Positions 2,460 through 56,123 of a stretch of 64,000 nt of DNA are shown here, in pieces. The stretch is from Candidatus Nitronauta litoralis (lineage in GTDB: Bacteria > Nitrospinota > Nitrospinia > Nitrospinales > Nitrospinaceae), in contig CP048685.1 of assembly GCA_015698285.1 (NCBI GenBank), forward strand, positions 1,302,001-1,366,000, read 5' to 3'. Position 1 is the first letter of the stretch. Every line of letters starts with the position of its first letter. The notes below the pieces were generated by a model that saw only the letters and a list, made by a program, of their open reading frames with translations, was not told the DNA's origin and did no database searches. The position numbers and the translations under genes are program-made.

Positions 2460-3647
2460 TTGGATCAGTTAACTCCTGCCCAAATGGCTACCAAAATTCG
2501 CGAACGTTACCCGGAGTTTCGCGGATTTAACTTTCCAAGCGGACTCCTGGCCAGCGCATTTGGGACCTCGGCCATATCTCAATATTCACCGAATAAATCG
2601 AAATTTTTTCACGACTTCTGTCAAATTGGCGCGTTGTTGACTGACGAGGCCTGTTGCATTCGTCACCTGAAAACATTGAACGCTGGAATGATAGCCCAGG
2701 TTAAAAATGAAATATCCAAATTATCCAGTAAATTGCGACGAATTTTCCACGCGAAAGGTTATGAACGCGAAGTCAACAGAACCTTTGAGCAGCTCAGCAA
2801 CCTGAGCCGTCTGGTGAATGTCCGCCCGACCATGTCAGACTACACATCAACTTCAGTACGCGAGATGTTGTCACCCCTCGGAACCTTAGCTGAATGGAGA
2901 CACGCCACCGGGGCACTGGACTTTCGCGGAATCCTCTCCAAGGTGTTGTTTGAAGCGGAAGTGATGTGGGGATTCAACATTGGCGAAGGAGGGGCAAGGC
3001 CGATTCCAACTTTGTCCGGTTTTCTCCACCCAGATAATTTCATCCAGGACCTGCTGGCGCAGGGAAGGCATTTCAAGGACCCGGGTGCTTCCATGAGCCA
3101 CGGTGAATATACACATCGTATCCAATGGTGGATCATTTGCCAGGAACATTATAATGGAGGAACCTATAGGTTAAAGAACGCGCCGATTGATGTCTTCAAA
3201 ATTTTGGGGAAACATGTCACTAAACACTGGAAAGCGGAGATGGGAGAATATGCAGATTTTTTGCCCGAGTCCATGGTGATGCGAACCATGTGGGACCAAC
3301 TCGTGGACTCGGTTCCGGGAGATTTTCCGGAGGCGAATTCCACGCCTAATACAGATTCATTCCAATCTCCTCATAATCTAAATTATTTTATTATGAAACC
3401 CGAGAATCGCAGACTCTTTCCATTGCTACATAATTTTCTGGTCACCCGTTATAACCGCCGCGCCTGGGATACTGTACTTGGAGTCAAGGGTGAGCTTTAC
3501 ATGCATCAAGCATTAATAGACAAATGGCATTATCGGAAAGAACAATTTGAATCGACGGATACAGACCTGGTCGGCATTATTGATATGCTGATCGGCACTT
3601 CAGGAAAAATTGTGGAAACTCCACGTGCCTATTTGAAATGGGATTAA
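2460..3647 (+). CDS. Hypothetical protein, 395 residues, family not recognised
   Basis: A long uninterrupted frame starting at a TTG, with an in-frame ATG nine codons later at 2484 as the alternative. No signal peptide or clear membrane segment is seen. The protein looks globular and mixed in structure, with a charged helical stretch near residues 80-110 (KNEISKLSSKLRRIF) and aromatic-rich segments such as HRIQWWIICQEH near residue 222. No catalytic motif was identified. The gene stands alone between an AT-rich leader and a 429-base gap, so context gives no clue. Frame length and codon use support a real gene; the function is unknown. Confidence 0.6.
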   Translation: MDQLTPAQMATKIRERYPEFRGFNFPSGLLASAFGTSAISQYSPNKSKFFHDFCQIGALLTDEACCIRHLKTLNAGMIAQVKNEISKLSSKLRRIFHAKGYEREVNRTFEQLSNLSRLVNVRPTMSDYTSTSVREMLSPLGTLAEWRHATGALDFRGILSKVLFEAEVMWGFNIGEGGARPIPTLSGFLHPDNFIQDLLAQGRHFKDPGASMSHGEYTHRIQWWIICQEHYNGGTYRLKNAPIDVFKILGKHVTKHWKAEMGEYADFLPESMVMRTMWDQLVDSVPGDFPEANSTPNTDSFQSPHNLNYFIMKPENRRLFPLLHNFLVTRYNRRAWDTVLGVKGELYMHQALIDKWHYRKEQFESTDTDLVGIIDMLIGTSGKIVETPRAYLKWD

Positions 3648-52294: not shown

Positions 52295-52966
52295 ATGAAC
52301 CAGAAAATTCTGGTGGTGGAAGACGAACCGAGCATCGCCGATACTCTGATCTATACGCTGGAGAAGGAAGGGTTTGATCCTACCCGTGTAGCTACATTAT
52401 CAGAGGCGCGCGAACATCTGGCCGCGCGGTCCTACACGGCCATTGTGCTGGATGTCGGTCTGCCAGATGGCAACGGTTTCGAGTTCCTTAAAGAAATTCG
52501 CAAGGATCACTCAACACCGGTCCTGTTTTTGACGGCAAGGGATGATGAGGTGGATCGCATCGTGGGCCTTGAAATCGGTGCTGACGATTACATCACCAAA
52601 CCGTTCAGCCCGCGCGAGGTCTCGGCGCGGGTCAAAGCAATCCTGAGACGGACCACCCAGGTGCCTGAGGATCAGAAAAGTACCTTGTTCCTGGTGGAGG
52701 AGGATAAACGAATCATCCGCTTTCAGGGAAACGCATTGGAATTGAGTCGGTATGAATACGGGATATTGAGCCTGTTGCTCAAGCGACCGGGTCAGGTGTA
52801 TTCGCGCCAGCAGATCATGGAACATGTCTGGCCCGACCCGGATATGAGTTTCGAAAGAACCGTCGACACGCATATCAAAACCATCCGCGGGAAATTAAAA
52901 GAGATCAGCGATGAAGAAATCCTGGTGACCCACCGGGGAGTGGGATATTCGATCAAGGAACGCTGA
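52295..52966 (+). CDS. creB: OmpR/PhoB-family response regulator, CreB-like
   Basis: A 223-residue regulator. The receiver has KILVVEDEPSIADTL, phosphoacceptor D in AIVLDVGLPDGNG, and K in DDYITKPFSPREV. The C-terminal winged helix contains LELSRYEYGILSLLLKRPGQ and VDTHIKTIRGKLKEI. It is called CreB because a sensor kinase and a CreD-family membrane protein follow on the same strand, the order of the creBCD operon. Binding to the repeated TTCAT sites upstream of creD is inferred. Confidence 0.88.
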   Translation: MNQKILVVEDEPSIADTLIYTLEKEGFDPTRVATLSEAREHLAARSYTAIVLDVGLPDGNGFEFLKEIRKDHSTPVLFLTARDDEVDRIVGLEIGADDYITKPFSPREVSARVKAILRRTTQVPEDQKSTLFLVEEDKRIIRFQGNALELSRYEYGILSLLLKRPGQVYSRQQIMEHVWPDPDMSFERTVDTHIKTIRGKLKEISDEEILVTHRGVGYSIKER

Positions 52967-53030: not shown

Positions 53031-54461
53031 GTGAAATATTCGTCCAAAATTTTTGTCAGCATCATTCTAGTGCTGGGCCTTGGTTTCTGGGGCTACGGAT
53101 ATTGGCTGATGAAGGAAATCCGCAGTCAATATGCGCAGAGTATGGAAGACTCGCTGGTTGATTTCTCCAATGTTCTGGCCTCTTACCTGTCAGCGCAATC
53201 CAATAATGGGAAACTTTATTTTAAGGATTTTGGCGAAGCCTTTCGCAATTTCAGGAAGCTTGAATTCAACGCCAAAATACACGGCGTTTTTAAAGACAGC
53301 AGTCCCATCCACGCATACGTCACCGATGAAAAAGGAATCGTGGTTTTTGATTCGCGAGATCCCAATAACGTTGGCCAGGATTATTCCAAATGGAATGATG
53401 TTTATCTGACGTTAAGAGGAGAGTATGGTGCACGGTCAACACGGATGGACTCTAAAGACCCGTTGTCTTCTGTATATTTTATTGCCGCCCCCATCGTGCA
53501 TAGCGGAAAAATCATCGGAGTAGTATCCGTCATCAAACCGGAACAAAGCCTGCAGAAGTTTATTTCGCAGGGGCGGGAGAAGTTTTTTTCGATAGGGCTG
53601 CTGGTGGTGCTTGCGGCTTCAACGGTTGCCGTTCTGTTTTCCTATTGGCTGACACGGCCTATCCGATCGTTGTTGAAGTACGCCAGAGAGATTACTGGTG
53701 GCGGAAAAGCCCGGCCACCTAAAACTGGTTCGCATGAATTTGATAACCTCGGCCAGGCCTTCGATGAAATGAGAATTTCATTGGAAGGTAAAAAATCGGT
53801 TGAGAATTTTGTGCAGCACCTCACGCATGAACTGAAAAGTCCGCTGACTGCCATTCAAGGTGCCGCCGAGCTGTTGCAGGACGACATGCCTGCTGACAAA
53901 CGAAATCTGTTTGTCTCCAATATTGAGACGGAAACCAAACGAGCCCGCAGGCTGTTGGATGAATTGCTTTCCGTAGCTGAACTCGAAAGCCGCAGTTCAC
54001 TTAAAGATATAGAGCGCTTTTCTGTGTCCCAGATGCTACGGGAAATAACAAAATCCTTTTCTGCTTTGATCGAGAAAAAAGGTCTCCAGCTTGATATTTC
54101 TATAAAGGGTTCCAACCATTTTATTAAAGGGGAACGGTTGTTGATTCATCAGACCCTCAGCAATCTGTTGATCAACGCCATTGATTTTTCACCGGAAAAG
54201 GGAACCATTTTTATTGAGATAGACAGCGATGACCGACATATTAAAATTTCAATTCGGGACCAGGGACCCGGGATTCCCGAATACGCCCGGGAACGAATTT
54301 TCGAGAAATTTTTTTCGCTGGAACGACCCGGGACTGGCAAAAAAAGTTCCGGCCTGGGTCTCAGTTTTGTAGAGGAAGCCCTGTCCCTGCACTCTGGCAC
54401 CATCAGGTTAATCCCCACTCCAAGCGGAACCCACTTCCAGATCACAATTCCCCACTCTTAG
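53031..54461 (+). CDS. creC: Sensor histidine kinase, CreC-like
   Basis: A 476-residue kinase from a GTG start, 64 bases after creB. A transmembrane helix near residues 8-25, a periplasmic sensor of about 165 residues (KGIVVFDSRDPNNVGQDYS), a second helix near 185-205, and a HAMP segment precede the catalytic part. The phosphorylated histidine lies in VQHLTHELKSPLTAIQG. The ATPase has an N box (LSNLLINAIDFSP) and G boxes DQGPGIPE and GLGLSF. It should phosphorylate the adjacent regulator. Size matches CreC of E. coli. Confidence 0.9.
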   Translation: MKYSSKIFVSIILVLGLGFWGYGYWLMKEIRSQYAQSMEDSLVDFSNVLASYLSAQSNNGKLYFKDFGEAFRNFRKLEFNAKIHGVFKDSSPIHAYVTDEKGIVVFDSRDPNNVGQDYSKWNDVYLTLRGEYGARSTRMDSKDPLSSVYFIAAPIVHSGKIIGVVSVIKPEQSLQKFISQGREKFFSIGLLVVLAASTVAVLFSYWLTRPIRSLLKYAREITGGGKARPPKTGSHEFDNLGQAFDEMRISLEGKKSVENFVQHLTHELKSPLTAIQGAAELLQDDMPADKRNLFVSNIETETKRARRLLDELLSVAELESRSSLKDIERFSVSQMLREITKSFSALIEKKGLQLDISIKGSNHFIKGERLLIHQTLSNLLINAIDFSPEKGTIFIEIDSDDRHIKISIRDQGPGIPEYARERIFEKFFSLERPGTGKKSSGLGLSFVEEALSLHSGTIRLIPTPSGTHFQITIPHS

Positions 54462-54525
54462 AGAGACCTCTGCAGAACCCTAAAATCAAAGCAGATCGGT
54501 CTGGTAGCAATGATGGCTAACACCC

Positions 54526-54641
54526 GTCATCGCGAGCGACCAGAGGGGGCGCGGCCAAGGTATTTTTCCTAAGCTTTCGTGCCCCGAAGGGGTAGATCCA
54601 GAGGTCTGGATTACTTCGTCGCTATCGCTCCTCGCAATGAC
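54526..54641. repeat. Dispersed inverted-repeat element, family A copy 2
   Basis: It begins GTCATCGCGAGCGACCAGAG and ends CGCTCCTCGCAATGAC, inverted repeats of each other. Internal bases TTCGTGCCCCGAAGGGG are shared with the copy at 2191-2324. A leader GAGACCTCTGCAGAACCC lies about 60 bases upstream, similar to leaders of the other repeat families. It separates creC from the creD control region. Confidence 0.75.
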
Positions 54642-54670
54642 CCAATCCTTCCCGGGGGGTGCAGGACGAA

Positions 54671-54708
54671 TTCATGGAAAGTTCATAGAGACTTCATATT
54701 AGGTTCAT
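54671..54708 (+). promoter_or_regulatory. Four TTCAT direct repeats at 11-bp period, cre-tag-like CreB site
   Basis: TTCAT occurs at 54671, 54682, 54693 and 54704, each separated by six bases. The cre-tag described for CreB in E. coli is two TTCAC units separated by six bases, so spacing and core match with a T in place of the last C. The array ends 42 bases before the creD start and suits binding by two regulator dimers. The creD ribosome binding site GGAGG lies downstream. Confidence 0.75.
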
Positions 54709-54749
54709 AGTCCTTCTCCAAAATTGGGAAAAATAAACTGGAGGACGCT

Positions 54750-56123
54750 ATGAGTGACGTGAAGAAAAAATTTTTTGCTAACAGCATCTGGATTAAAATC
54801 TGGCTGATCGTTTTTATTTGTTTGATCCTGCTCATTCCTGTAGGGCAGGTGGAAGATTTGATTCATGAGCGACATCATTACAGCAATCAGGCCAAAGATG
54901 AGGTGACCAGAAAATGGTCGCGCAAGCAAAGCACCGGCAAGGTCGTCTTGTCTGTACCCATTATTCAGACACGCACCAGACTGGACAAGGAAGGGAAAAG
55001 CGAGACTTATGACCATCATAACTACGTTCATTTTTTACCGGACACGCTCCTGATCACAGCGGATACCCAGAGCCACGTTAAAAAACGCGGACTCTACACC
55101 ATTCCCCTTTACGAAACCCGACTCGTGTTGGAAGGCGGGTTTTCCAATCTCGAACAGTACACGCAGGATCTCAAGAACACAAAGATACTCTGGAAGAAGG
55201 CAGAGTTAAATCTTGGTGTGGACGAGGTGCGAGGTCTGAAAGAAGTTGAGGTGCAATGGAATGGCAACAAACTGGACCGGACGATCGGCAATATGGCTTC
55301 CGGTGTTTGCGGAAGCGCGATTCGATCCAAAATCCCCGGCACATCCGATTTTGTAAAAGAAAAAGGAGGGAAGTTTCATATCACGGTTGGTTTGAAAGGC
55401 AGCGACGCGTTGGAGTTCTTACCTTTCGGTGGGACAACAAAAGTGAATATGGTGTCCAACTGGCCGGACCCCAGTTTCGATGGTTCTTTTTTACCGGACA
55501 GCTCGGCTATCAGTAAAAACGGATTTCAAGCGGAATGGAGTGTATTGGGACTGAACCGAAACCTCCCTAAATCCTTCAGCGGCAGGCGTTCCTTGAAAAA
55601 CCTTCAAAAGGAAAGTCGCTTCGGTGTGCGTTTCCTGATGCCCCTGCAAAATTATCAGTTGAACACCCGGTCGGTGAAATATTCCTTCCTGTTCGTTGCC
55701 TTAACGTTCGCCACCATGTTCTTCATTGAAATTTTATACGGCCTTAAATTCCATCCCATGCACTACACCATCACCGGCACCGGACTCTGCCTGTTTTACC
55801 TTTTACTGATTTCGGTATCCGAGCACATAGGTTTTGCCTTGGCGTATGCGGGTGCATCGGGCGCAACCATCCTGACCATTTTCCTTTATGTACTGGGTGT
55901 GACCCATGCGAAAAAAGGAGCGTTCATCGTTCTGATGCAATTGTCCGTTCTCTACGGTTTCCTTTTTGTGCTGCTCAAGCAGGAAGATTTAGCATTGGTG
56001 GTGGGCTCGGTTGGCCTGTGGTTTGTCCTGGCTTTCATCATGTATGTCACCCGGCATATCGACTGGTTCAACATTCAGTTGCCGGAATCCGGAAAACCTG
56101 ACCGAAACCTTGCTGCCGGATAA
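54750..56123 (+). CDS. creD: Inner-membrane protein CreD
   Basis: A 457-residue protein with an N-terminal transmembrane helix (IWLIVFICLILLIPVGQVED) and a large periplasmic domain with GGFSNLEQY and LEFLPFGGTTKVNMVSNWPD. Then come about six C-terminal helices from residue 310 on (FVALTFATMFFIEILYGLK, HPMHYTITGTGLCLFYLL), as in CreD. CreD responds to CreBC and is linked to envelope stress and beta-lactam or colicin tolerance in other bacteria. Start ATG has GGAGGACG upstream. It is separated from creC by a repeat and the TTCAT array, so it has its own promoter. Confidence 0.92.
   Translation: MSDVKKKFFANSIWIKIWLIVFICLILLIPVGQVEDLIHERHHYSNQAKDEVTRKWSRKQSTGKVVLSVPIIQTRTRLDKEGKSETYDHHNYVHFLPDTLLITADTQSHVKKRGLYTIPLYETRLVLEGGFSNLEQYTQDLKNTKILWKKAELNLGVDEVRGLKEVEVQWNGNKLDRTIGNMASGVCGSAIRSKIPGTSDFVKEKGGKFHITVGLKGSDALEFLPFGGTTKVNMVSNWPDPSFDGSFLPDSSAISKNGFQAEWSVLGLNRNLPKSFSGRRSLKNLQKESRFGVRFLMPLQNYQLNTRSVKYSFLFVALTFATMFFIEILYGLKFHPMHYTITGTGLCLFYLLLISVSEHIGFALAYAGASGATILTIFLYVLGVTHAKKGAFIVLMQLSVLYGFLFVLLKQEDLALVVGSVGLWFVLAFIMYVTRHIDWFNIQLPESGKPDRNLAAG

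Follow-up and report, generated by a model that had tools for sequence, protein, structure and literature searches.

The conserved CreBC system has few targets that are certain, and these were partly found by scanning for a two-unit tag. The primary papers on this cre-tag are those of Avison in 2001 and Cariss in 2008. In front of creD of Candidatus Nitronauta litoralis, four such units stand in a row, and the locus raises the question of whether the CreB site has been doubled and respelled in this lineage, as originally predicted, or whether the array displays a layout that creD promoters have more widely. The four TTCAT units are very probably a docking site for CreB before creD, and, to judge from the comparison with relatives, the familiar CreB site of two copies may be no more than the first half of a switch built from four, which stands at a constant distance from the promoter.

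The array and its genes

In the window, the whole 64-kb stretch of DNA that was analysed, TTCAT is repeated four times at an exact 11-bp period (positions 54671-54708), just as the original prediction had stated. The array is on the plus strand, which is that of creD, follows creB and creC, and ends 41 bp ahead of creD, spanning -79 to -42 relative to the ATG. Units 1 (54671-54675) and 2 (54682-54686) are the upstream and downstream halves of a pair that matches the published cre-tag. Unit 3 (54693-54697) begins the promoter-proximal pair, at a position whose equivalent is weakly conserved in other creD promoters, and unit 4 (54704-54708), the unit nearest to the promoter, is a putative stand-in for a -35 element with a fixed distance to a -10-like hexamer across species. 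All four units share the period and the first four bases of the tag TTCAC-N6-TTCAC and lie where it is expected, upstream of creD and on its strand; the fifth base is T in every unit, so that no letter-for-letter tag is present. Judged by its letters, the array is a variant spelling of the cre-tag.

Runs of at least three consecutive TTCAY units gave two overlapping matches in the 3.92-Mb genome, both of them here, and none with the reversed pattern as control. With three mismatches allowed in a four-unit search, all other places in the genome had three, one-unit shifts of the array excepted. Given how often TTCAY occurs in the window, chance would produce a four-unit array at one fixed spacing about 0.0006 times per genome and 0.00001 times per window.

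The genes beside the array are genuine creBCD, since all three products exceed the curated equivalog cut-offs. These are creB (52295-52966, plus strand), a response regulator of the OmpR/PhoB family (NCBIfam NF008296, CreB equivalog, 291.1 bits against a cut-off of 273), the sensor histidine kinase gene creC (53031-54461, plus strand; NF008312, CreC equivalog, 542.4 against 356) and creD (54750-56123, plus strand), the presumed target gene, which encodes an inner membrane protein (NF008712, CreD equivalog, 436.8 against 275; Pfam PF06123). A ribosome-binding-like GGAGGAC, assigned by sequence, precedes creD (54740-54746, plus strand). Inspection by eye of the region upstream of creB for an autoregulation site revealed nothing array-like. 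A dispersed repeat without assigned strand (54520-54655) separates the array from the creC stop codon; the array lies outside it and is left intact. The copy number of this repeat differs greatly between species of one genus, with 35 matches to the 136 bp searched in the own genome, 24 in the congener G010 and one in the congener G011.

Conservation in the genus and spelling of the units

creD was found in four of the 77 genomes of the phylum that were searched, namely the own genome, two congeners and one genome of the same class; the nearest relatives with creD are Nitrospinaceae MAGs. The gene is thus present in 3/3 genomes of this genus, yet in only 1/74 of the rest of the phylum searched, a distribution that suggests gain by transfer or wide loss.

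Loss of the array before creD in relatives had been named as an observation that would speak against the prediction; both creD-bearing congeners keep it. Four units at the 11-bp period occupy the same place in all three creD-bearing genomes of the genus, each time as the sole near-perfect array of the genome. The units read TTCAT/TTCAC/TTCAC/TTCAC in G011, with the exact TTCAC-N6-TTCAC in units 2-4, and TTCAC/TTCAC/TTCAC/TTCAA in G010, with the exact tag in units 1-3. Array and creC stop codon overlap in G011, unlike in the window, where the dispersed repeat intervenes. The comparison covers these congeners, since the contig of the class-level relative (G003) begins 25 bases before its creD match. 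With four units in both congeners, mostly TTCAC, conservation of the array is clear, and TTCAT is a matter of spelling at the species level.

The CreB segment that corresponds to the recognition helix of this family is ERTVDTHIKTIRGKL in the window, ERTVDTHIKTIRNKL in G011 and DRTVDTHIKTLRAKL in E. coli, the version of the window being nearly the same as that of E. coli. Compared with G011 and E. coli, the helix holds nothing that explains why the fifth base is T rather than C, in keeping with a tolerated spelling and not with an altered CreB specificity. The idea of TTCAT as a mark of the lineage had to be given up, given the mostly TTCAC units of the congeners, a TTCAT array in a deltaproteobacterial MAG and the nearly unchanged helix; a lineage-specific change of the motif was rejected on the grounds of the TTCAC units in relatives and of this helix. 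In the deltaproteobacterial MAG (L028, 2290-2343), TTCAT/TTCAT/TTAAT/TTCAT stand at 11-bp steps before creD, with creBC about 3 kb from the array on the other strand.

A second pair in other creD promoters

To place the array among other creD promoters, 81 creD loci (80 and that of E. coli) were surveyed for TTCA-N7-TTCA within 260 bp upstream; creC loci without a creD match were excluded (7/16 in one search and 10/41 in another). The pair was present in all 36 loci with both creB and creC matches and in five of the 45 without a creB match, including three Rhodoferax/Curvibacter loci and L027, a genus relative with a contig that begins at the array. Downstream of the published cre-tag, many creD promoters linked to creBC carry another pair, weaker than the first and placed at +20 to +22, and the four units can therefore no longer be taken for a doubling peculiar to the lineage. 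The E. coli creD promoter carries TTCAC/TTCAC/TTCAA/CCCAC at 0, 11, 21 and 32, a Rhodoferax and a Variovorax have their units at 0, 11, 20 and 31, and a Zoogloeaceae MAG at 0, 11, 22 and 33. The last spacing also prevails in a searched order that looks like Xanthomonadales, with TTCAC, TTCAA, CTCAA or CACAA, and CACAC or CTCAC; its pair TTCAC-N6-TTCAA is the Stenotrophomonas pair in the consulted part of PMC4689548.

For statistics on the second pair, 73 non-Nitrospinaceae sequences were grouped into 22 clusters with one representative each. Four rows were excluded from these and the hexamer analyses, L119, L121 and L131 because ungapped anchoring gave them no clear first pair and L028 because of its TTCAT units; duplicates were dropped as well (L120 equals L081, L132 equals L116, L148 equals L117). 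L026 and L168 were anchored manually, and L083, L090 and L092 were retained though creBC was not found in their loci. Weighted by cluster, CA is most frequent at +24 (0.55) and +35 (0.68), where the cores of units 3 and 4 fall in a register of 22, against frequencies between 0 and 0.2 at almost every other offset; lesser maxima at +22 (0.30) and +33 (0.38) fit a register of 20, and a value of 0.48 at +48 falls where the -10-like hexamer starts. The summed score of the second pair over the 22 representatives, many of them related and more than half from one order-level search, was 135; 1000 shuffles gave 88.1 +/- 5.0 and never more than 106. In individual tests, P for the second pair was above 0.05 in 12/22 representatives, and units 3-4 match poorly in several species.

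Two further arrays were observed in the Zoogloeaceae MAG (G079). On inspection by eye, a second creD paralogue directly 3' of creD has its own array (L289, about 3163-3250), TTCAC/TTCAC/TTCTT/TTCAC at 11-bp steps, with a -10-like TACTCT 15 nt after the start of unit 4. On the minus strand of L288 (about 2020-1950), TTCAC/TTCAC/TTCAC/CTCAA precede a large predicted protein that by eye resembles VIT/von Willebrand A domain proteins and may be another target of CreB in this MAG.

A fixed distance to the -10-like hexamer

In the window, a putative -10 hexamer, CAAAAT (54719-54724, plus strand), starts 15 nt after the start of unit 4, leaving a gap of 10 nt; CAGAAT in G011 and CAGACT in G010 align with it. 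A sigma-70 -10 matrix was run over the positions +8 to +24 counted from the start of unit 4. In 18 of 25 representatives, among them the window, G011 and G010, the best-scoring -10-like hexamer stood exactly at +15, compared with a mean of 1.4 and a maximum of 6 in 2000 shuffles; these 18 have the geometry of a PhoB-type operator, 11-bp direct repeats that end about 10 bp before a -10. Among the seven with the best hexamer elsewhere, L153 looks like a mis-assigned register. Measured from unit 1, the hexamer lies at 46 in 3/5 representatives of register 20, at 47 in 2/2 of register 21 and at 48 in 15/18 of register 22. It shifts with unit 4 as the register shifts and is thus tied to that unit. 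Such a geometry predicts transcription starts, for example from the -10 TATCCT at 4638148-4638153 of E. coli K-12 (NC_000913.3).

These observations bear on a simpler reading, in which only units 1-2, the published cre-tag, matter and units 3-4 have no role and owe their perfect match here to local tandem duplication or chance. It agrees with the published tag being a pair, as given in the consulted parts of PMC4689548 and PMC3660660, and with the poor matches at units 3-4 just mentioned. We nevertheless regard it as unlikely, because the second-pair score is far above the shuffles over 22 clusters and the hexamer tracks unit 4, not unit 1. The spacers between the four units of the window, moreover, are unlike one another, which argues against a recent tandem duplication.

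The whole module, four units and the -10, was scored leaving one cluster out. The 25 representatives reached 15.9 to 35.3, with 17.3 for the window, and the rows set apart scored 9.1 (L119), -1.3 (L121), 10.5 (L131) and 9.4 (L028). As controls served 40 of the 45 creD loci without a creB match, leaving out L027, L083, L090, L092 and the cut-off L099. Upstream of creD, 39 of them scored at most 6.1 and one, on a short MAG contig (L089), 17.2, in an easy contrast, since the controls are mostly Bacteroidota and probably AT-rich. With a model built without Nitrospinaceae, the array ranked first in the window, narrowly (16.9, next 15.8) because this model prefers TTCAC, and first in the loci of both relatives (26.6 and 30.7, next 11.4 and 18.3 with one-unit shifts of the array set aside). 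A null of 734 random pieces without known operators had its 99% point at 8.1 and its maximum at 31.3.

Scanning the genome with the pair

The original prediction had further proposed that TTCAY-N6-TTCAY could lead to the regulon of this organism, an expectation that the genome did not bear out. The pattern occurs 61 times, three of them inside the array, with no excess at N6 in the genome over the 68.7 per spacing found for N4-N9 (412 in total); the reversed-pattern count of 15 is an unfair control, as its words differ. When the 58 other pairs were read in context, 14 were non-coding by a crude ORF test, and none of these 14 was conserved in G011, the nearest relative; the three pairs that are conserved there fall in coding frames. 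A wider regulon based on the pair scan was rejected for these two reasons, the missing excess at N6 and the 0/14 conserved non-coding pairs. Two readings fit: this organism has no strong target besides creD, or its remaining targets are too degenerate to be picked up by the motif. If the working site consists of four units and a fixed -10, scans for the pair alone yield many false sites, as here, and the longer module, if true, would be a far more specific search than the pair.

The scan also bears on a reading of the array by another regulator of the OmpR/PhoB family such as PhoB, whose boxes are likewise 11-bp direct repeats with a TCA core. In E. coli, the PhoB box is a direct repeat of two 11-nt units, CTGTCAT, and lies some 10 bp ahead of the -10, according to the consulted parts of PMC4415409 and PMC1906773. 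Such a reader is very improbable here: in the creD loci surveyed, the array accompanies creBC, the units of the window, TTCAT, lack the TG before TCA of the pho box unit CTGTCAT, and by eye no phosphate gene was recognised downstream of any of the 12 inspected non-coding TTCAY pairs in this genome. That the four copies reflect chance or a coding or repeat constraint, as the commonness of TTCAY pairs (61 at N6) might suggest, can be dismissed, since about 0.0006 such arrays are expected per genome and the array is non-coding, lies outside the dispersed repeat and is conserved in two relatives, which already contradicts this view.

Proposed mechanism

We infer CreB binding, the dimer arrangement, promoter activity and the direction of regulation. 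With a probability of roughly 0.8, the array would be the operator and promoter of creD, with tandem CreB dimer sites in a PhoB-like geometry and units 3-4 replacing the -35. Phosphorylated CreB would occupy the array as dimers arranged head to tail, with one dimer on units 1-2, where the cre-tag lies, and another on units 3-4, each unit being contacted on the same face of the helix in 11-bp steps. Units 1-2, the strongest pair in most species, would be filled first, and units 3-4, which end 10 bp before the weak -10 CAAAAT, would substitute for the missing -35. The PhoB operator is an OmpR-family operator that replaces the -35 element, and CreB, with units 3-4 in that place, would recruit sigma-70 RNA polymerase like PhoB at the pho box.

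In the consulted part of PMC4689548, creD of S. maltophilia is negatively regulated by CreBC and does not change significantly with phosphomimetic CreB. There CreBC lowers creD expression, and activation is thus not universal. The S. maltophilia group seems to have the same creD-promoter layout, and the same operator may serve repression when the bound CreB is not in its activating form.

We also lean, less firmly, towards a general form of this proposal, namely that in all bacteria with linked creBC the creD operator is a four-unit, two-dimer site, of which the cre-tag is the upstream loading half and the weak pair 10 bp before the -10 meets RNA polymerase. On this four-unit reading, Nitrospinaceae keep all units near consensus and hence display the full design, and the joint of 9, 10 or 11 bp between the pairs would mark them as separate modules. 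Apart from the primary papers, the literature located on the cre-tag, in the parts consulted, gives a two-unit tag only or a tag without sequence, and a general layout of four units with the -10 at a fixed distance may not have been described before.

Comparison with known systems

The closest known element is the cre-tag or blr-tag (TTCAC-N6-TTCAC) of CreB/BlrA, with which the array shares the unit, the 11-bp period, the orientation, the position before creD and the adjacent creBC. Units 1-2 of the window correspond to the E. coli pair, starting at -79 and -68 here and at -77 and -66 in E. coli. The array differs from the tag in having four near-consensus units instead of the two described, in the T at all four fifth bases and in a promoter-proximal pair of full strength. 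With the tandem pho boxes of PhoB, as described in the consulted parts of PMC1906773 and PMC4415409, it has in common the 11-nt head-to-tail direct repeats and a last unit 10 bp before the -10, whereas its unit is of the CreB type, TTCAC/T and not CTGTCAT, and the regulator gene next door is creB. The creD promoters of Enterobacteriaceae and of the Xanthomonadales-like order likewise open with a strong pair, to which another pair and then a -10-like hexamer are added, the hexamer usually at +15 from unit 4. Unlike in the window, their second pair is degenerate (TTCAA/CCCAC and CTCAA/CACAC, respectively), and in Enterobacteriaceae it lies 1 bp closer.
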